From Halococcus agarilyticus (GTDB taxonomy: Archaea; Halobacteriota; Halobacteria; Halobacteriales; Halococcaceae): a DNA stretch of 64,000 bases. Location of the stretch: the NCBI RefSeq assembly GCF_000334895.1, contig NZ_BAFM01000002.1:124001-188000 (forward strand), in the 5' to 3' direction. Position 1 is the stretch's first letter; each line of letters begins with the position of its first letter. Below the pieces are notes generated by a model. That model did not search any database. It was not told the DNA's origin and worked only from the letters and a program-made list of their open reading frames with translations. Below, one piece after another: positions 45,595-64,000 of this stretch. The translations under genes were made by a program, and so were the position numbers.

Positions 45595-45881
45595 GCCAAC
45601 GCTATCACACACGCGGACTTAACGGTACGGGCTGCTGGGGCCGGTCGACACCCGGGTACGTGGGGGACCGACGCGTCGAAGGTGGTTGTAGTGTGTTTCG
45701 GTTCGCCCGGTCGTCGGGTTTCACAGGGTGGATCGTCAACGGTGTTCGACGCGGACGACGGATCGAACTCTCGGGCGGCAGTCGTCTCATGTTTGTCGAT
45801 ACAGCTCCGATCAGAGGGGACGAATCGAGGAGAAGAGGACCGTCAGCGATCACCCGGACCCGTTCTGTCGACGTGTAGTGG

Positions 45882-47408
45882 TCAGTCGTCAGCCGGGATG
45901 AACCGCCGAATAACCGGAATCGCGACGTCGAGACGGTTCTCGACGAGCTCGACCGGGATTTCGTCTTCGGGTTGCAGGCAGCCCGTGAGAGCGACGACGC
46001 CCAGCGTTGCGAGCCCTGCGAGGACGCCCGAAAGGGGAAACAGGACGAGCGACAGCGTCACCGTCCGTGAAACGAGGAGTACGGGAGGAATCAGGACGAG
46101 CGGCAGGAGCACGAACGTTCGGGTCGACCACCGGGAGAACGGGGTGATCCCGAACGAGTTCCACAGGATGGCGAACGCCAGACCGTTGAGCGTCGCGAAC
46201 GAGAGCGCCGTCGCCATCGCAGCCCCGAGAAAGCCGTATCGAGGGATCAGAACGGCGTTCAGCAGGACGTTGAGAACGGCAGCGATCACGTTGATCCAGA
46301 GGATGACCCTGGTGTGGCCGAACGCTGCGAGCGTGTCCTGCGCACGGCCGTAGGCAGCACTGACGAAGAATCCCGTCGCGATGATCCACAGCGCCGTCCC
46401 GCCCTCGGCGTAGGTTTCGCCGAAGAACAGGGCGACGACGTCGGCCGAAAACCCGACGAAGACGAGGAAGATCGGGAACCCCGCGATGTAGACCCACTTC
46501 GTGGTGACCTTGTAGATCGAGTTGATCTCCTCGTGATTGCCTTCGGCGTCGAGCCGCGACGTGAGCGGCATGTAGAGGAACCCGAACGAACTCATCAGCG
46601 CGGGCAACCCGGCCGCGAGCTGGTAGGCAGCGTCGTAAACCCCGACCTCGGCTGTCGTCCTGAAGTACCCGAGCATGAGCGTGTCTACCTCCCCGAGCAG
46701 CTTCGACGTCATCGCCGAGAGCACCAACGGGATCGAGAACAGCAGCAACTGCTTGGGCCTGATGGTGATTTCGCCACGGAGCGAAAGCAACCGATTCAGG
46801 AGGAGGTGCGCGAGGACGAACGTCGCAACGCCGGCGAACAGATAGGCGTATCCCGCCGACGACACACCGACCCCGGCGAGCAACAGCGCAACGATCAGCC
46901 CGAGACGCACGCCGTTGTAGAACAGGTCGCGCGCGTAGGTGCGGTAGATCGTGTTTTCGAGTCCCCGGATCGCTCCGATGGCGATGCGAAAGCCGACGCC
47001 GAACGGGATCGCGAGAACGAACAGCGTCAGCAGTTCTCGAGAGCCAGGTTGCTCGAAGAGGAGACCCACGATCCATGATCCGCCCACGAGAAGGAGCGCA
47101 GCGAGGACTACGGACACGACGAGAGAGATGATCAGGCCGGTGACCCAGACGCCTCGCACCTCCCGGCTCGTCTTCAGCCGCGACATGTACCGGGCGATCC
47201 CCGTGTCCAGGCCGACGAGCGCGACCGTCGTGCTGAGGCTCATCACCGAGATCCCCAGCGCAACCTCCCCGTACGCACTCTGGGACAGCACGCGTGCGAT
47301 GACGACCCGCTCGACGAGCTTCGACGAAGAACCCAGCGTCCCACCCACCAACATCAGACTCGCACTCGAAACGAGCGACGAGAGGTCCGATTCGTTCGCT
47401 CCGGACAA
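45882..47408 (-). CDS. Polysaccharide/lipid-oligosaccharide flippase (MVF/Wzx-like)
   Basis: A 508-residue protein with fourteen helices and the Polysacc_synt pattern: SSASLMLVGGTLGSSSKLVERVVIARVLSQSAYGEVAL at the start, GLLFEQPGS, ETYAEGGTALWII, and YGFLGAAMATALSFATLNG near the end. Such proteins flip lipid-linked glycans to the outer face. The only plausible start is TTG at 47408, because an in-frame TAA lies just upstream and the next ATG (47354) would cut into the conserved N-terminus. A TCATAAGT box precedes it. Base composition looks lower in G+C than neighbouring core genes. Confidence 0.85.
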   Translation of the reverse strand: MSGANESDLSSLVSSASLMLVGGTLGSSSKLVERVVIARVLSQSAYGEVALGISVMSLSTTVALVGLDTGIARYMSRLKTSREVRGVWVTGLIISLVVSVVLAALLLVGGSWIVGLLFEQPGSRELLTLFVLAIPFGVGFRIAIGAIRGLENTIYRTYARDLFYNGVRLGLIVALLLAGVGVSSAGYAYLFAGVATFVLAHLLLNRLLSLRGEITIRPKQLLLFSIPLVLSAMTSKLLGEVDTLMLGYFRTTAEVGVYDAAYQLAAGLPALMSSFGFLYMPLTSRLDAEGNHEEINSIYKVTTKWVYIAGFPIFLVFVGFSADVVALFFGETYAEGGTALWIIATGFFVSAAYGRAQDTLAAFGHTRVILWINVIAAVLNVLLNAVLIPRYGFLGAAMATALSFATLNGLAFAILWNSFGITPFSRWSTRTFVLLPLVLIPPVLLVSRTVTLSLVLFPLSGVLAGLATLGVVALTGCLQPEDEIPVELVENRLDVAIPVIRRFIPADD

Positions 47409-47609
47409 GACTATCGACTCACCTTCCGTCGACCACCGAGGACGGTCGACTTATGAAACGCGGTTCGAGCGTGACGCCTCCTTTTTCCAGTACGAAATCG
47501 TTCTGTCGTTGTTCTCGTATTGATTGGATTTTCTGCTGATTTCCCGATTTAGAGTGGGATACTCCGTTGTGCTGCTCAGTAGCGATCTGTTAGCGTATGT
47601 ACCACACAG

Positions 47610-47616
47610 TTTATTG
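47610..47616 (+). promoter_or_regulatory. TATA box before the amidotransferase leader ORF
   Basis: TTTATTG is centred about 27 nt upstream of the ATG at 47640. That makes the 31-codon ORF, and not the amidotransferase itself (47732), the predicted leaderless start. Confidence 0.55.
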
Positions 47617-47639
47617 ACGTCTGGCGTGTCGCCTCGGTA

Positions 47640-47735
47640 ATGGTTGGTCCATCCCTCCACGGACTGATTGGGGCGTCGTGTCCGCGAACGCCGGGGCCAC
47701 GGGACGCTACCGAGTCACACCACGACCTCCGATGA
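47640..47735 (+). CDS. 31-residue ORF coupled to the asparagine-synthetase-like gene
   Basis: ATG at 47640 begins MVGPSLHGLIGASC and ends ...ATESHHDLR. Its TGA overlaps the ATG of the amidotransferase gene (ATGA), and a TATA box sits 27 nt upstream, so it is placed to be translated first. The peptide has one Cys, an RTPGPRD segment with Thr two residues before a Gly, and a Glu seven residues into the following stretch. That pattern superficially resembles lasso-peptide precursors, but no lasso protease or recognition protein is encoded nearby. It could be only a leader. Confidence 0.35.
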   Translation: MVGPSLHGLIGASCPRTPGPRDATESHHDLR

Positions 47736-49537
47736 CCGGTTTCGTCGGCGGGACTGTTGTCGGCTCCACCCTCGATTCGTTGGTCGACGAACTCCACCAC
47801 GAGCCGTGGTACGAGCGCGAGCGCTTCGAGGAGGGAACCACGGGTCTCGGATTTCTCCATCACGGCGCGAAAGATCCGGCGGGCCATACAACGTGGCAAG
47901 GCGACGGCCGTGCCGGCATCGTCCACGGCGCGATCTCGAACGTCGACCGACTGGGAGTGTGCCCGGACGAGGTGTTCGAACGCGTTCTCGATGACACGTC
48001 GTTTCTCGCGGAACTCGACGGTCCGTTCGTCATCGCGTGTCTCGATGCACACGCCGGGAGACTCGTCGTCGCGACCGACAAGCTCGGAACGCGACCGTGC
48101 TACTACGCACACGACGATGGGGTGGTTCTCGGCTCCTCTCTCGCTGCCCTGCTCCCGGCGATCGATGCGCCAGCCGTCGACGAACATGCAGTAAGTGACA
48201 TGCTGCTCCTCGGGAACGTCTGGGGAGAACGGACGCTCGTCGAGGGTGTCAGTGCGCTCGGACCGGCGACGGTCTTGGAATACGATGATGCGGGCGTGGA
48301 CCTCGCTCGGTACTGGAAACCGGACTACGACTCCGCACCACGCCGCGGGTACGTCGCCGAACTCGTCCGGCAGTATCGCCAGGCGATGGCCGACGTTTCG
48401 ACGACAGTCGACGGGGAGCTCGGGCTGTGGCTCTCCGGCGGACTCGACAGCCGATCGATGGCCGCCGAGCTGCGCCAGCACGCCGGTCGAACGTTCGATT
48501 CGCTGACGACCTACACGTACGATGCGAACCCCAAAGGAGGGGGGAACCCGGAGATCGCAGCCCGGGTGGCATCGGTGCTCGATGTGGACAACACCGAAGT
48601 CGAGCTCGATCCGGACACGTTCCTCGACATCATCGAGGAGAGTGTCGACCTCGTCGACGGAATGTTGCGATGGTCGTCGCTGCTGAACCTCTCGACGGTG
48701 TTTTCGCTCCCGAACGACGGGACGAACGTCCTCATGGAAGCCTCCGGTCAGGGCGAACTGATCGGCCAGCACCCGCGGCAGTACCATTTCACACACACGG
48801 ATTCCGTCGTGGAGGGACTCATGATGAGCGAAGCGATGGTGGATGCATCGGCGGTCGACGCGCTGCTGACGGCGAACGTCGATCCGAAGCGCTCGCTCCG
48901 GGAATCGGGGCGGCGAAGCGCGGAACGAACCACCGAGAAGCGCCTCCTCGACGTGAACTACACCAACTACTACTCGCGAATGGCGTTCGCGAGCAACGAG
49001 ATCATGCGCAGCCAGGTGGGAACACGGGTCCCGTTCGCACACGGGGATTTCCTCGAGCACACGGCTCGGTTGCCGATCGAGTACCGAATGGGGACGTTCC
49101 CGCTCACGAAGGGCGCGATCCCGTACGGGATGACCCGACCGAAGCACGCGCTCGCCAGATCTCACGTCGGGGAGCTGAGTCGGATCCCGTACGAACGGAC
49201 GGGCTTGGGACCGGTGTGGCCGTACCCGGCACAGCTGGCTGGCTTCGTCTGCAAAACCGGCGTCTCCCGCCTCCGCTCGAACATCGCCTACGGTGGCGGG
49301 AAGACTCCGGACGAGTGGTACCGACAGCACCCCGCGTTTCGGGCGTACATCGACGAACTGCTCGACGACGCCTGTCAGCGATCGCTGTTTCGCGCGGAGG
49401 CGATCAGACGTCTTCAGCGCCAGCATCACCAGCGGGAGGCCAACCACGTGACAACGCTCGTTGCTGCGATCACGACGGTCGAACTCTGGTTGCAGCGCAA
49501 CCTCGATCCACAGCGGAAACCGCAGCAGCCGGCTTGA
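47732..49537 (+). CDS. Asparagine-synthetase-like protein with Thr at the nucleophile position
   Basis: A 601-residue protein. The N-terminal Ntn-amidotransferase-like domain (1-215) begins MTGFVGG where active AsnB begins MCGIVG, so Cys2 is Thr2. DGPFVIACLDAHAGRLVVATDKLGTRPCYY follows. The synthetase domain carries the ATP pyrophosphatase loop LSGGLDSR at residues 235-241. Glutamine-dependent activity is therefore doubtful, unless Thr2 works as in proteasomes; AMP-forming amide ligation may remain. A GTG at 47678 is an alternative start. Homologues occur in surface-polysaccharide and peptide-cyclising loci. It lies between a flippase and an ATP-grasp ligase. Confidence 0.8.
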   Translation: MTGFVGGTVVGSTLDSLVDELHHEPWYERERFEEGTTGLGFLHHGAKDPAGHTTWQGDGRAGIVHGAISNVDRLGVCPDEVFERVLDDTSFLAELDGPFVIACLDAHAGRLVVATDKLGTRPCYYAHDDGVVLGSSLAALLPAIDAPAVDEHAVSDMLLLGNVWGERTLVEGVSALGPATVLEYDDAGVDLARYWKPDYDSAPRRGYVAELVRQYRQAMADVSTTVDGELGLWLSGGLDSRSMAAELRQHAGRTFDSLTTYTYDANPKGGGNPEIAARVASVLDVDNTEVELDPDTFLDIIEESVDLVDGMLRWSSLLNLSTVFSLPNDGTNVLMEASGQGELIGQHPRQYHFTHTDSVVEGLMMSEAMVDASAVDALLTANVDPKRSLRESGRRSAERTTEKRLLDVNYTNYYSRMAFASNEIMRSQVGTRVPFAHGDFLEHTARLPIEYRMGTFPLTKGAIPYGMTRPKHALARSHVGELSRIPYERTGLGPVWPYPAQLAGFVCKTGVSRLRSNIAYGGGKTPDEWYRQHPAFRAYIDELLDDACQRSLFRAEAIRRLQRQHHQREANHVTTLVAAITTVELWLQRNLDPQRKPQQPA

Positions 49538-49643
49538 TCGAACCCGTGACGGGAATACGATTCAGTACTGTGCCAGAAGCGATGGACGGTTCGAAAACGA
49601 TGTGTCGAAGGAAGCCACACCGCAGCGGGGGTGTCACTCGACG

Positions 49644-50792
49644 ATGAACGGACGCGCGCTCGTGTTCGATGCCGAGCGGCGACAGGCGCTGGTGGCGATC
49701 CGCTCGCTCGGTCGTCGAGGGATCGACGTGACCGCTGCATCGGGATTGCGGCTGAACGCCGGTGGCGCGTCGAAGTACGTCGATCGGCGGGTTCGATATC
49801 CGCGTCCCCAGGATGATCCGGCAGCGTTCGTCGATCGGATCGAGCGAGAGGTCCGTACTCACGACTACGACGTACTGCTCCCGATCGCCGATCCCACCGT
49901 CGCCCCCGTCGTGGAAGCCAGACATCGACTCGAACCGTACGCGGCGATCCCGTTTCCCGAGGCGGACACACTGCGCATCGGGACGGACAAGAAACGGACG
50001 ATCGAAGCCGCACGCGAGGCGGGAGTGCCCCATCCGAAAACACTCGCGCCAGCGGAGCTCGACGTCGAGGAAGTGGCGGACGAGATCGGGTACCCCGTGG
50101 TCGTCAAGCCGCGGCAGGGAGCCGGTCGGCTCGGTGTTTCCGTCTGTCACACACCAGGCGAACTCGAGGCCGCCTACGCGAACACGCCCGATCACCACCA
50201 CCCGCTGCTTCTCCAGGAGTTCGTTCCGAACGGGGGCGAGCGTGGTGTCTACACGCTCTACAACTGGTCGTCCGAACTCAAAGCGGTGACCGTACAGCAG
50301 CGGATTCGGACGGACCCACCCGGGGGTGGGACGAGCACGTTGCGTGAAACCGTCGACGATCCGGGCCTGATCTCGGTGACCGACGACCTCCTCTCCGGGC
50401 TCGGTTGGCAAGGGGTGGCGATGGCCGAGTTCCGTATCGACTCGCGCGATGGCGAACCGAAGCTCATCGAAATCAACCCTCGTCTCTGGGGAAGCCTCGC
50501 GCTCTCCGTCGGGGCGGGTGTGGACTTCCCCGCGCTGCTGTACGAGCTGGCGACCACGGGAGACTGCGAAACGGTACTCGACTATCGATCTGGCGTCCAG
50601 GCACGTCGGCTGCTGGGCGACATCGCTCACGTGATCGCCCGGAAGGACAGGAAGGCCGCTCTCAGGGAGTTCCTTCGTCCGGCCGATGGTCCACGTCACC
50701 ACGACGTTCTCTCTGCTGATGATCCGGGTGCAACTGCAGCGTACTTCGCCGCCGAAATCGGCAAGTTCGCCCAGCGCCGACTGTTTTCGTAG
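49644..50792 (+). CDS. ATP-grasp ligase (carbamoyl-phosphate synthase-like)
   Basis: A 382-residue protein. The N-terminal strand is ALVFDAERRQALVAIRSLGRRGIDVTAASG. The ATP-grasp core has TDKKRTIEAAREAGVPHPKT, PVVVKPRQGAGRLGVSV, LLQEFVPNGGERGVYTLYN, and the metal motif LIEINPRLWGS near residues 274-283. Such enzymes join a carboxylate to an amine or thiol through an acyl phosphate. Many of this subgroup lie in surface-glycan loci. It starts 106 nt after the AsnB-like gene on the same strand. The substrate is unknown. Confidence 0.85.
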   Translation: MNGRALVFDAERRQALVAIRSLGRRGIDVTAASGLRLNAGGASKYVDRRVRYPRPQDDPAAFVDRIEREVRTHDYDVLLPIADPTVAPVVEARHRLEPYAAIPFPEADTLRIGTDKKRTIEAAREAGVPHPKTLAPAELDVEEVADEIGYPVVVKPRQGAGRLGVSVCHTPGELEAAYANTPDHHHPLLLQEFVPNGGERGVYTLYNWSSELKAVTVQQRIRTDPPGGGTSTLRETVDDPGLISVTDDLLSGLGWQGVAMAEFRIDSRDGEPKLIEINPRLWGSLALSVGAGVDFPALLYELATTGDCETVLDYRSGVQARRLLGDIAHVIARKDRKAALREFLRPADGPRHHDVLSADDPGATAAYFAAEIGKFAQRRLFS

Positions 50793-51212
50793 GTTCACTG
50801 GATGTGACTGGAGAGATCGCGTTCGTTCCCCTCCATCGGTCATGTCGTGAAATCGAACAGGGCTTCTCCTTCGTTGAGCGGTCGAGCTGTCCTTCGCTGG
50901 CCGATGAGCGGGATGGTCTCACGCAGCAGGCTCCGAACACATCGTCCCGGAGAGCGCGGGGTCGGTGTGTCGTCGGCGATCGCCGCCCGTTTCGGCTCGC
51001 CTGGTCGCCGGATCTTGCCCATCGGTTCGTCGAAGCCTCAGGGCGGGATTCTCTCGCTGTCGAAAGATAGCCTTCCGAGCGTCGCAGACGGACGCTGATC
51101 CCCCGAAGATTCGTCTCAGGACGCTTTTGCAGCGCCCTGATGGCTGTTTTGAACAGCGCCCGAAACTACCGAACGCCACCATTCATATGCAAGCAAGTCA
51201 TGGATACATCTC
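50793..51212. other. 420-nt stretch without a recognisable gene
   Basis: Short frames on both strands (for example 50804-51070 and 50840-51022) show no family and have the mixed Arg/Ser/Cys composition of non-coding DNA. The right end holds the promoter of the Bat-type regulator. The region may be the worn border of the flippase/ligase island. No inverted repeats or direct target duplications were found by eye. Confidence 0.4.
51183..51189 (+). promoter_or_regulatory. TATA-like box of the Bat-type regulator
   Basis: TCATATG is centred 27 nt upstream of the GTG at 51213. This supports the GTG and a leaderless mRNA. Confidence 0.5.
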
Positions 51213-51872
51213 GTGTCGGTAATCGCGGAGTTCAGTATCCCGGCGGAGGAGTTCGCGCTCTACGAGACGCTCGAACGCCGGCCGGAGCTGACGTTCAACA
51301 TCGATCGCGTGGTCGCCCACAACACGACCCAGGTGGTGCCGTTCGTGCGGATGACGCAGGGGAAGCTCGAGGGGTTGACCGAGATACTCGAAGCCGATTC
51401 CAGCGTCGAGGAGGTCGAACTGTTCGGCGAGACGGACGACGAGTGCTTCTACCGACTGGTGTGGAACGACACCGCCCAGGTCATCGGGTACATGGTCAAC
51501 GGCCACGGCGCGACCGTCCAGGAGGCCACCGCGACCGACGGCGAGTGGCACCTCCGCGTGCTCTTTCCCGAGCGGAACGGTCTCTCGGCCACGAACGAGT
51601 ACGCCGAAGAAAGCGAGTTCACGCTCGACGTGAAGCGTATCTATGGAGTTGACGGGTTCGAGAAGGCACAGTACGATCTCACGGAGGCACAACACGACGC
51701 GCTCACCGCGGCTGTCGAGCAGGGCTACTACGAGATCCCGCGTGAAGTGAACGCCAAGGAACTCGCCGCCGAGTTCGGCGTCTCCCACCAGGCGCTCTCC
51801 GAGCGATTCCGTCGGGCGACGAAGAGCCTCGTCACGAGTACGCTGCTCGTCGATGAGGACGAAGGAAACTGA
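51213..51872 (+). CDS. Bat-type (HTH_10) transcriptional regulator
   Basis: A 219-residue protein. Residues 1-150 form the beta-rich bacterioopsin-activator-like domain (IAEFSIPAEEFALYETLERRP; WHLRVLFPERNGLS). The C-terminal HTH_10 domain is at about 155-210: YDLTEAQHDALTAAVEQGYYEIPREVNAKELAAEFGVSHQALSERFRRA. Haloarchaea have many such regulators, usually without a known ligand. It lies 226 nt upstream of, and in the same direction as, the peptide ABC transporter operon, which it may control. The GTG start is supported by a TATA box. Confidence 0.9.
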   Translation: MSVIAEFSIPAEEFALYETLERRPELTFNIDRVVAHNTTQVVPFVRMTQGKLEGLTEILEADSSVEEVELFGETDDECFYRLVWNDTAQVIGYMVNGHGATVQEATATDGEWHLRVLFPERNGLSATNEYAEESEFTLDVKRIYGVDGFEKAQYDLTEAQHDALTAAVEQGYYEIPREVNAKELAAEFGVSHQALSERFRRATKSLVTSTLLVDEDEGN

Positions 51873-60637: not shown

Positions 60638-60934
60638 TCATTCCTCGTTTTCCGTGTCCGCTTGCTCGTCGTCGGTCGCGTCCTCGGCCTCGACGGAGAG
60701 CGGCTGTCCGGCGTCGTCGTCGAGCGCCCGACGTCGATGGGTCCGGTCCCAGTCCTCGAAGATGCCGTACTCGGTCATCGTGTCCATCCCCGCGAGCGCC
60801 GCTCTGAGTTTGAGGCCGATCAGTGGGACGTCGGCGACCGAGATGATGACGTCAGCCTGGAGCACGACCCCGTCGCGGAGGATCGCGTCCACGAGGTCGA
60901 CCACCGCGCCCTCTTCCGGTTTCGATGGTTCCAT
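60638..60934 (-). CDS. gvpM: Gas vesicle protein GvpM (GvpA/J family)
   Basis: A 98-residue protein with the GvpA/J/M core: VVDLVDAILRDGVVLQADVIISVADVPLIGLKLRAALAGMDTM (about 12-55). This helix-beta-beta-helix element is shared with the shell protein GvpA. An acidic C-terminus (about 70-98) follows. In Halobacterium gvpM is an essential minor component in vesicle nucleation and the last gene of the F-to-M operon, as here. ATG at 60934 is 7 nt after the gvpL stop. Confidence 0.88.
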   Translation of the reverse strand: MEPSKPEEGAVVDLVDAILRDGVVLQADVIISVADVPLIGLKLRAALAGMDTMTEYGIFEDWDRTHRRRALDDDAGQPLSVEAEDATDDEQADTENEE

Positions 60935-60941
60935 CAGTGAG

Positions 60942-61811
60942 TCACTCGTCGAACGTCGGCGCGAACGTGTAGGGTGGCCACGGGCCGGTGAAGCGGACCT
61001 CGACGCCGGGCTCGGCCGCCACCGCGTCGAGCTCCTCGCCGATCGCGTCCGTATCGGACTCGTGAGCCAGCACCGAGACGCGCGCCTGAGTGGTCGCGCT
61101 CTCGCGGTCGTCGTCTCCCGCTGCGGTGTCGTCCTCACGGTCGCCGTTGGCTCCCGTTGCGGTGTCGTCCTCGTCGTCGAGCGTCGTCGTGCGCTCGGGC
61201 GAGAGCTCCCGGACCTCGCGGGCCAGCGGTTCGAGTCGCTCGGCCAGCTCGTGGGTGCGCTCGGCGCGGCGCTCGTGGCGGAGCTCGTCGCGGCGCTGCT
61301 CGTACTGGGTTTCGAGGAGGTGGGCGGTTCCCTCGCCCGCGGTCTCGATCCGGTCGGCGAGGTCGGCGAGCTGGTCGTCGCTCGCGAGTCCCTCGTCGAG
61401 GGTCGCGTCGTCCTCGGCGACCTCGATCCGGTACTCCCAGTGGCCGGCGAGTTCGTCGAGATGCGCCGAAAGCGTTCCCGCCTCCTCGGTGAGCCACTCG
61501 CGCACGCGCTCGTCGCCGCCGGTCAGGATGGTGTCGAACCGGAAGGGGAGGGGCGTGCCGAAGCGCTCGCCCGCCGCGTCGATGGTCGCCTGGTGTTCGA
61601 GAAGCCACTTGCGCACCACGTCGGGATTGGCGGCGTCGTAGAGCGCCTCGCACTCGTGAACCACCGCACCGAGGCCCTCCTCGACCACGAGAAACACTGG
61701 CTCGTCGTCGACGCCCGTCCGGTCGAACGCCTCGTCCACACGGGTTTCGTCGACGCTCACGACACAGTAGAGATAGCGGCCGGTCGCGAACTCGCTCTCG
61801 GAATCACTCAT
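60942..61811 (-). CDS. gvpL: Gas vesicle protein GvpL (GvpL/GvpF family)
   Basis: A 289-residue protein. The opening GRYLYCVVSVDE and PLPFRFDTIL...VREWL are the GvpL/F landmarks, with a coiled-coil centre rich in Glu/Arg (YEQRRDELRHERRAERTHELAERL) and the C-terminal FTGPWPPYTFAP. An acidic insert of about 35 residues (DDEDDTATGANGDREDD) enlarges it. GvpL interacts with several Gvp proteins in nucleation complexes. The start overlaps the gvpK stop by 8 nt. Confidence 0.92.
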   Translation of the reverse strand: MSDSESEFATGRYLYCVVSVDETRVDEAFDRTGVDDEPVFLVVEEGLGAVVHECEALYDAANPDVVRKWLLEHQATIDAAGERFGTPLPFRFDTILTGGDERVREWLTEEAGTLSAHLDELAGHWEYRIEVAEDDATLDEGLASDDQLADLADRIETAGEGTAHLLETQYEQRRDELRHERRAERTHELAERLEPLAREVRELSPERTTTLDDEDDTATGANGDREDDTAAGDDDRESATTQARVSVLAHESDTDAIGEELDAVAAEPGVEVRFTGPWPPYTFAPTFDE

Positions 61812-62127
61812 CCCCGATCACGCCCCGCTCGGCCCGGTCGGAGTCGTTAGCCCGGTGGACGAGATCGGTGACAAGCCCGTCGAGCTCGCCCCGGAGATCG
61901 TCGACGGGTTCGGAGACCCCGGCTTCGGCTTCGAGTCGATCGATCTCCGCCTCGACCGACGCGAGCTGCGCGCCGAGGCGTTCGACCTCCTCGTCGGAGA
62001 GGTCGCCCGACTCCATTCGCCGGATCGCCTCGCGTTCCAGCGCGTCGACGAGGATCTCGATGACCGCGAGCACCAGCGTCATCAGCCCGTCGGCGGCGTC
62101 GTCGCCGTCGAGATCAATCTTCGTCAT
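61804..62127 (-). CDS. gvpK: Gas vesicle protein GvpK
   Basis: A 107-residue protein with the GvpK pattern: LDGDDAADGLMTLVLAVIEILVDALEREAIRRMESGDLSDEEVERLGAQL, followed by a coiled coil (EAEIDRLEAEAGV). The length is normal. The start overlaps the gvpJ gene by 14 nt. It is an essential accessory factor of vesicle formation. Confidence 0.92.
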   Translation of the reverse strand: MTKIDLDGDDAADGLMTLVLAVIEILVDALEREAIRRMESGDLSDEEVERLGAQLASVEAEIDRLEAEAGVSEPVDDLRGELDGLVTDLVHRANDSDRAERGVIGDE

Positions 62128-62650
62128 CGCTCTCCCCGTCGGTCGTTGCCTCCGGTTCAGTGTCGTCGGTATCCTCGGCCGCGTTCTCGCTTTCCTCCCT
62201 GTCCTCGCTTCCGTCGGCTTCGTCGCCCTCCCGTCTCGATCGCCCGCCGATCCGCGGTCTGGCCCCGATTCCCGGTTCCGAGGCGGGACTCTCGTCGTCG
62301 TAGTCGGTGTCCGAATCGCTTTCGTCGCTCGTGATCGGCGGTTCGGCGAGCCACGACCCGCTTTCGTTGATCGGCGGCGGGTCGTCCTCGTCGTCGACCT
62401 CCTCGATCGGGGTCCGGTCGGAGGCCGCCTCGACCCGGCGCATGTCGGTGCCGTCGGGGAACTCGAGGCCGTACTCCGCGGCGGTCTCGAAGGAGGCGAG
62501 CGCCGCTCGGAGCTGGATCCCGAGGAGTTCGGTGTCACCCACCGAGACCGCGATGTCGGCGTTGATGACCACGCCCTTGTCGAGCAACATCTCGACCACG
62601 TCCGCGAGACTGTCGCTTCGCCGCGTCGGACCGCCGCCGCGCTCACTCAT
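62114..62650 (-). CDS. gvpJ: Gas vesicle protein GvpJ with long acidic tail
   Basis: A 178-residue protein. The GvpA/J core is at about 14-60 (LADVVEMLLDKGVVINADIAVSVGDTELLGIQLRAALASFETA). The remaining 110 residues are Asp/Glu/Ser-rich and low-complexity, with a short basic patch (RPRIGGRSRR). Known GvpJ proteins are about 110-115 residues, so this tail is unusually long. Its start overlaps the upstream gene by 8 nt. Confidence 0.9.
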   Translation of the reverse strand: MSERGGGPTRRSDSLADVVEMLLDKGVVINADIAVSVGDTELLGIQLRAALASFETAAEYGLEFPDGTDMRRVEAASDRTPIEEVDDEDDPPPINESGSWLAEPPITSDESDSDTDYDDESPASEPGIGARPRIGGRSRREGDEADGSEDREESENAAEDTDDTEPEATTDGESDDED

Positions 62651-63665
62651 CGTCGCCCTCCGCCGTCCGGTCGAGGCGTGATCCGTAGAGCCGTGGCCGG
62701 TTCGGGGCCGACGAGTAGCGCGTCTCCTCGGGCACCGTCGAGAACGCCGCTCGGCCGCTCATGTCGTTCCGCGAGGTCGGGATCGAGGAGTACGCCGTCG
62801 GGTTCCGCGACTCCGGCTGTTCGACGTCCTCGGTCCGTGCTTCGTTTTCCTCCTTGAGCTCCTTGACGCGCTCTCTCGTGTCGAGCAGGCTCTCCCTGAA
62901 CTCCTCGACCGCGTCGCTGAGCTTCGACTGGACCCGCTGCTGGATGGTCTCGGTCGGGACGTCGATATCGTCGCGCTCGCTCCCGCCCTCGGCGTCGGCG
63001 TTGACGTCGGCTGTACCGCTGGCACCCCCACCCTCGATACTGCCGGCGTCGTCGCCGTCGGCATCGTCGTCGCCCACGAGCTCGCGGAGTTTCGCCATCG
63101 GCCCTTTCTCGTCGTCCTCGTCGTCGGTCAGTTCGTCGGTCGCGTCGTCGAACTCGCGCTTGTTCCGCCAGAACTCCCGGACGTCGACCGTATCCCAGAG
63201 TTTCCCGAGTTCGACGACCTGGAGGAGCTTTCGGTACTTCACGGCCTCGCCGGGGTCGCCCTCCGCGATCGCCTCGGGGACCTCGCTCGCGTCGATCGCG
63301 TCCGGCAGCTCCGAGAGGTCGACGGCGTCCGGGAGGTCGGTGAGATCGATGGTTTCGAGGAGCTCCTCGATCTCCTCGACGACCGCGATGAGGTCCTCGA
63401 CGTCCTCCTGTACCTCCTCGAACGGGTGGTCGCTCTCGTGGGCGGTGAGCAGCGCGTCGACGTCGCCCATCGCGCGGTCGAGCAGGTCGTCGAGATCGCG
63501 GTCGGGTACGTTCCCGTCGTCGGTCGACGGCTCGTCAGCTTCGTCGGCCACCTCGTCGCCCCCGGTGCTCCCTTCATCCGTTTCCTCGACCGTCTCGGAC
63601 AGATCGTCGAGCGTCTCCGCGACGTCCTCGACGTCCTCGCGACCCTCGACCGACTGGTCGCTCAC
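62643..63665 (-). CDS. Gas-vesicle-cluster acidic protein at the gvpI position
   Basis: A 340-residue protein. The N-terminal 60 residues are very acidic. A central helical part follows (MGDVDALLTAHESDHPFEEVQEDVEDL), then repeated short motifs LTDLPDAVDLSELPDAIDASEVPEAI, and KYRKLLQVVELGKLWDTVDVREFWRNKR. Residues about 240-285 form a coiled coil (QQRVQSKLSDAVEEFRESLLDTRERVKELKEE). The last 50 residues are Ser/Arg/Pro-rich (SSIPTSRNDMSGRAAFSTVPEETRYSS). It occupies the place of gvpI but is more than twice as long. Whether it is GvpI is unproven. Confidence 0.6.
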   Translation of the reverse strand: MSDQSVEGREDVEDVAETLDDLSETVEETDEGSTGGDEVADEADEPSTDDGNVPDRDLDDLLDRAMGDVDALLTAHESDHPFEEVQEDVEDLIAVVEEIEELLETIDLTDLPDAVDLSELPDAIDASEVPEAIAEGDPGEAVKYRKLLQVVELGKLWDTVDVREFWRNKREFDDATDELTDDEDDEKGPMAKLRELVGDDDADGDDAGSIEGGGASGTADVNADAEGGSERDDIDVPTETIQQRVQSKLSDAVEEFRESLLDTRERVKELKEENEARTEDVEQPESRNPTAYSSIPTSRNDMSGRAAFSTVPEETRYSSAPNRPRLYGSRLDRTAEGDDE

Positions 63666-63669
63666 GGCA

Positions 63670-64000
63670 TCACCCGTCCTCCGAGCGCTCCTCGAGTTCG
63701 GTCATCAATTGATCGGCGAGCGACTGGAGCTCGTCGGTCGACATCTCGTCGAGGTCCTCGGGCGGCTCGGACGAGGTGTTCTCCGCGTCCTCGTCGGCCG
63801 TATCGCCGGTGTCGTCGCCACCGGTCGTCCCGCTCACGAGACTCTCGGCGGCCCCCTCGATGTCGGTCGTCTCGAGATAGCTCACCAGCAGCGTGACCAT
63901 CCGTTCGTCGAGGTCGACGTTCCGGCCGAGGATCTCGCCCAGCCGCCGGCCGACGAGGCCACCGAGCGTCCGGCCGAGCGACTCGCCGACCTCGGGGAGA
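63670..64000 (-). CDS. Gas-vesicle-cluster protein, N-terminus outside the window
   Basis: The frame is open at the right edge and ends at 63670, so the 109 C-terminal residues are visible. The visible start is LPEVGESLGRTLGGLVGRRLGEILGRNVDLDERMVTLLVSYLETTDIEGAAESLVSG, a helical segment. An acidic Ser/Thr stretch and a helix (STDELQSLADQLMTELEERSEDG) follow. The stop lies 4 nt before the next ATG. By position it could correspond to gvpH, but no Hsp20-like domain is visible in this part. Confidence 0.55.
   Translation of the reverse strand, partial: LPEVGESLGRTLGGLVGRRLGEILGRNVDLDERMVTLLVSYLETTDIEGAAESLVSGTTGGDDTGDTADEDAENTSSEPPEDLDEMSTDELQSLADQLMTELEERSEDG

Follow-up and report, generated by a model that had tools for sequence, protein, structure and literature searches.

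What is a polysaccharide-type flippase gene doing beside two genes for ATP-dependent ligases in the haloarchaeon Halococcus agarilyticus, do the three belong together, and what might they make? A sequence-only reading of this stretch of DNA, hereafter the window, had proposed that they form an undescribed locus which builds an amide-modified surface molecule exported by the flippase, with a threonine possibly standing in for the catalytic cysteine of an AsnB-like enzyme. The gene layout that it described is confirmed, namely a minus-strand flippase gene with a TTG start and, divergently, an AsnB-like gene with MTGFVGG and SGGLDS motifs followed by an ATP-grasp gene:

Window: 64,000 nt, assembly GCF_000334895.1, contig NZ_BAFM01000002.1, 124,001-188,000, forward strand
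45650-50945: cassette insertion with the three genes, delimited by homology to the empty site of the relative G005
45882-47408, minus: flippase, Polysacc_synt_3/MATE-like, 508 aa, TTG start
47409-47731: divergent intergenic region, 323 bp, 55% GC, putatively carrying the promoters
47732-49537, plus: AsnB-fold PP-loop protein, 601 aa, MTG start, degenerate glutaminase domain
49644-50792, plus: ATP-grasp carboxylate-amine-ligase-like protein, 382 aa from ATG

The last protein is counted from its ATG; the TTG at 49461 is only the earliest start codon that the open frame offers. The flippase scores above the cut-offs of Polysacc_synt_3 (PF13440, E 9.7e-21) and PF01943 (E 1.5e-17), and its matches in relatives begin at query residues 1-7. 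Conservation thus extends upstream of the internal Met, which makes the TTG or a nearby start plausible.

A three-gene insertion and its empty site

On both flanks of the locus, gene order in G005, a close relative, follows that of the window (83-99% protein identity), yet none of the three genes is present there. The blastn match between the two ends at 45649 (91%) and returns at 50946-51035 (78%, E 8.6e-14), and these two homology blocks lie only about 5 bp apart in G005. The three are the only recognised genes in the missing stretch (approximately 45650-50945, 5.3 kb), which supports their behaving as one unit. Their base composition is also distinct. The GC content of the cassette genes is 0.636-0.652, against a mean of 0.685 for the longer genes of the window, and the GC3 values of the AsnB-like (0.789) and ATP-grasp (0.739) genes are the lowest among 39 such genes (mean 0.883). 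This deviant GC3 favours a gain in the window over a loss in G005. The spacers are AT-richer, as first noted, with 0.55-0.62 GC. Beyond 51035 the window and G005 diverge again, and so the site is variable. A BAT-type regulator at 51213, though also absent from G005, falls outside the homology-defined insertion and was not counted in the cassette. The cassette itself contains no glycosyltransferase or other sugar genes, in agreement with the sequence-only reading, and a GT20 trehalose-phosphate-synthase-type gene 1 kb away is part of the conserved backbone.

Some further features were observed in the window. A perfect 22-nt inverted repeat has one arm inside the flippase gene (46854-46875) and the other just past the right edge of the insertion (50957-50978); the whole genome holds no other copy of this sequence, even with two mismatches permitted. 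Upstream of the AsnB-like gene lies a 31-codon open frame (47640-47735) whose TGA overlaps the AsnB ATG, and short frames also end at the start of the AsnB-like gene in genomes G006 and G001. This overlap is dictated by the ATG-ACN start and may be due to chance. Finally, short, acidic minus-strand genes run from 60638 to 64000 and, by their sequences, resemble a portion of a gas-vesicle (gvp) cluster.

An AsnB-fold protein with an altered glutaminase site

The AsnB-like protein was modelled (pLDDT 92) as a full-length, two-domain Ntn plus PP-loop fold, and structural comparison returned full-length matches to TsnB9, AsnB and beta-lactam synthetase. The best is the hydroxyamidotransferase TsnB9 (PDB 7ylz; Z 27.6, rmsd 3.2 over 515 residues), which is also the best PDB sequence match, but the two share only 17% identity and the TsnB9 motif LSGEAADE is not kept. 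E. coli AsnB follows (PDB 1ct9; Z 25.9, rmsd 3.2 over 441 residues), sharing the PP-loop SGGLDS. The beta-lactam and carbapenam synthetases (PDB 1jgt, 1m1z, 1q15) also match over the full length (Z 22-25, with 24.9 for beta-lactam synthetase; 15-17% identity), although they act on natural-product substrates and reside in a different genomic context. These synthetases use the AsnB fold with a glutaminase-dead N-domain. At the profile level the cassette protein exceeds the cut-off of Pfam Asn_synthase (PF00733, E 4e-20), scores weakly against a lasso-cyclase family and reaches only 111 bits with TIGR01536, whose cut-off is 267. Canonical asparagine synthesis was rejected, since no protein of its own genome attains that cut-off.

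The N-terminal half departs from AsnB in the glutaminase site. Among 39 aligned haloarchaeal relatives the second residue is T in 23, P in seven, V in four, S in four and R in one; Cys occurs in none. The Thr2 motif is invariant across ten Halococcus-group proteins, and together with the missing Cys this rules out a sequencing or assembly error, an outcome that the sequence-only reading had named as refuting it. Asn74 and Glu76 are glutamine-binding residues of the AsnB glutaminase site, and in the profile alignment their positions are occupied by His or Tyr and by Ala or Val, respectively. The proposal that Thr2 replaces Cys as the nucleophile, so that the N-domain still frees an amine from glutamine or another amide, could draw on the invariant Thr of the Halococcus group, on T or S in 27 of the 28 rows of one subclade and on the superposition of residue 2 on residue 1 of mature AsnB, but with the glutamine-binding positions also lost, P, V or R at position 2 in 12 of the 39 relatives, where a Thr-type Ntn hydrolase would conserve its nucleophile, and the start motif absent altogether from the Halobellus rarus protein (L068), which is paired with an ATP-grasp gene, it is unsupported, and glutaminase action through Thr2 appears very unlikely. 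Thr, Ser, Pro and Val at this position all permit removal of the initiator Met, which may be the reason why they are tolerated.

The synthetase half is altered as well. The ATP loop SGGLDS is invariant among the 39 relatives and always followed by Arg (SGGLDSR, residues 235-241 of the cassette protein). In contrast, sequence-profile alignment indicates substitutions at all the positions corresponding to AsnB E348, D351 and the EARVPF Glu, with Gly in place of the last. Amide formation, as put forward in the sequence-only reading, thus stays an inference, and the chemistry may differ from amide synthesis. With residues changed in the glutaminase site as well as at several positions of the synthetase half, the protein could be a pseudoenzyme, its fold and ATP loop kept as a scaffold or as an ATP-responsive regulator of glycan assembly. 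We consider this unlikely, given the invariant loop and a new polar set (E336, R432, K471 and Y487, which together with W529 are 97-100% conserved) of the kind expected of an active site.

The second ligase looks like a working carboxylate-activating enzyme, judging from its residues and predicted structure. It matches ATP-grasp Pfam families (E 1.8e-9 to 3.1e-9), retains the catalytic Lys, Glu and Asn among its invariant residues (K155, R157, E276, N278), and its model (pLDDT 89) has an ATP-grasp fold, with Z near 30, that resembles 2pn1, biotin carboxylase and PylC. Of these, the carbamoyl-phosphate-synthase-like 2pn1 (PRK12767) is recognised both by sequence (E 2.1e-12) and by structure (Z 29.7, rmsd 2.5 over 292 residues); the cassette protein falls below all curated cut-offs.

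Distribution and genomic surroundings of the family

A scan of genome contigs with the single AsnB-like protein returned nothing, while an alignment-based scan retrieved 47 loci, which were taken with their surroundings; all but one are haloarchaeal. Of 292 genomes sampled from the class, 41 contain the family, and identity to most relatives found is 39-63%. In the tree all 39 relatives fall on one side of a branch with 100/100 support, and the 16 Cys-bearing proteins of the phylum form a separate 100/100 group; the position of two sequences (L159 and L152) may reflect a long-branch effect. Pro-type relatives with SGGLDSR also occur outside haloarchaea. The genome of H. agarilyticus itself encodes two more paralogues, L032 and L035 (55% and 48% identity), at G000:C7:143349-145136 and G000:C11:61949-63745. 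The C7 copy lies near a formyltransferase-type gene and two members of the family of large, uncharacterised proteins described below.

The sequence-only reading called the locus undescribed. This is only partly true, as databases widely annotate the family as "asparagine synthase-related protein", with its function uncharacterised. Asparagine synthesis should not be read from that annotation. What is new is the recognition that these proteins constitute a single clade, glutaminase-dead and with a modified synthetase site, which is associated with surface-glycan loci and, in the window, with a compact variable cassette. Our literature search found nothing usable on amidating O-antigen enzymes or on haloarchaeal AsnB in polysaccharide synthesis; a match to a Haloferax "asparagine synthase" was discarded, since it concerns an Lrp/AsnC regulator.

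Do the three genes travel together elsewhere? The three orthologues are found within 11 kb in G001, in another order (74% identity for the ATP-grasp protein, 62% for AsnB, 63% for the flippase). In Halobellus rarus the AsnB and ATP-grasp genes overlap by 8 bp, the latter encoding a protein 55-58% identical to P0003. In G006 a GNAT gene accompanies AsnB and the flippase, and the genome has no close relative of the ATP-grasp gene; G007 likewise pairs an AsnB-like gene with a flippase. The same flippase subfamily recurs near AsnB homologues in G001, G006, G007 and Halegenticoccus. In Halapricum, Haloferax marinum and H. mediterranei the AsnB homologues have ATP-grasp genes of a more distant kind in their vicinity. 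Considering loci of at least 18 kb (n=45), an ATP-grasp gene is nearby in six. The linkage of the three is thus recurrent but not strict, and the compact cassette is confined to few loci.

A flippase, glycosyltransferase, UDP-sugar dehydrogenase or UDP-GlcNAc epimerase was recognised at 31 of these 45 loci and none of them at the remaining 14, though many Haloferax loci are near copies and the independent cases are fewer. A flippase alone is found at 23, against six flippase matches in the whole H. agarilyticus genome. The homologues of H. mediterranei and H. gibbonsii sit amid nucleotide-sugar dehydrogenase, Gfo/Idh oxidoreductase, DegT aminotransferase, acyltransferase and wecB genes, a set that fits acetamido-uronic acid synthesis. 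A glycan cluster common to the congeners G007 and G003 has the AsnB-like gene in only one of them, with the same flanking genes in both, indicating that this gene provides an accessory step.

A family of large proteins (median 660 aa) was also observed within 8 kb of 25 of the 45 loci (L032, L033, L047, L056 and L079, among others), more commonly than any single glycan gene tested. Some members have a twin-arginine-like signal, and the one member scanned gave no Pfam match.

Possible products of the cassette

The predominance of surface-sugar clusters around AsnB relatives suggests an optional kit that decorates a cell-surface glycan. We put forward, at about an even chance, that the window carries an accessory, probably horizontally moving cassette for surface-glycan tailoring, in which an ATP-dependent, amide-type modification would be followed by export through the flippase. 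The amide-modified surface molecule of the sequence-only reading survives here in its surface-glycan part, whereas what is ligated, which bond results, in which order the steps run and whether the product is exported are all inferred. The AsnB-fold protein, having lost glutamine hydrolysis, would activate a carboxylate through its ATP loop, most probably that of a uronic acid in a glycan precursor or else of a small acid, and would then join it to an amine or to free ammonia. The ATP-grasp enzyme might perform a second carboxylate-amine ligation or prepare the amine partner, and the flippase would take the finished lipid-linked saccharide across the membrane. If surface polymers are indeed modified in this way at their uronic acids or amino sugars, this would account for amide-type substituents on haloarchaeal glycans, and the three genes offer a small testable unit. 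In a bolder version, which we regard as rather unlikely, the family would comprise PP-loop ligases with both AsnB sites rebuilt (SGGLDSR together with E336, K471 and Y487), creating acyl links, amides or others, on surface polysaccharides without glutamine, and a flippase-ligase-ligase cassette passing from strain to strain would alter the glycan.

In an alternative scenario the product might be a small molecule or a modified peptide of the beta-lactam or lasso type. The presence of beta-lactam and carbapenam synthetases among the closest folds and the weak lasso-cyclase score point in this direction, but the neighbours of the family are polysaccharide genes, the flippase is of the polysaccharide type, and no gene for a precursor peptide or a lasso protease was recognised in those neighbourhoods that were inspected. 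We deem this scenario quite improbable.

The cell wall of the genus provides another candidate, as the Halococcus wall polymer contains glycine and lysine, with N-glycyl-glucosamine as a cited constituent (PMC4187196). That the cassette makes this compound is nonetheless highly doubtful. The AsnB family is missing from four of the ten congeneric genomes, so that the AsnB-like protein is not a general Halococcus wall enzyme; close ATP-grasp relatives occur in only two congeners, and AsnB-like proteins of this kind are frequent in Haloferax and others. Among three congeners (L037, L038 and L039), a more distant ATP-grasp gene was observed in a conserved cluster with polysaccharide deacetylase-, glycosyltransferase-, FemAB- and flippase-like genes, apparently another surface-polymer locus.
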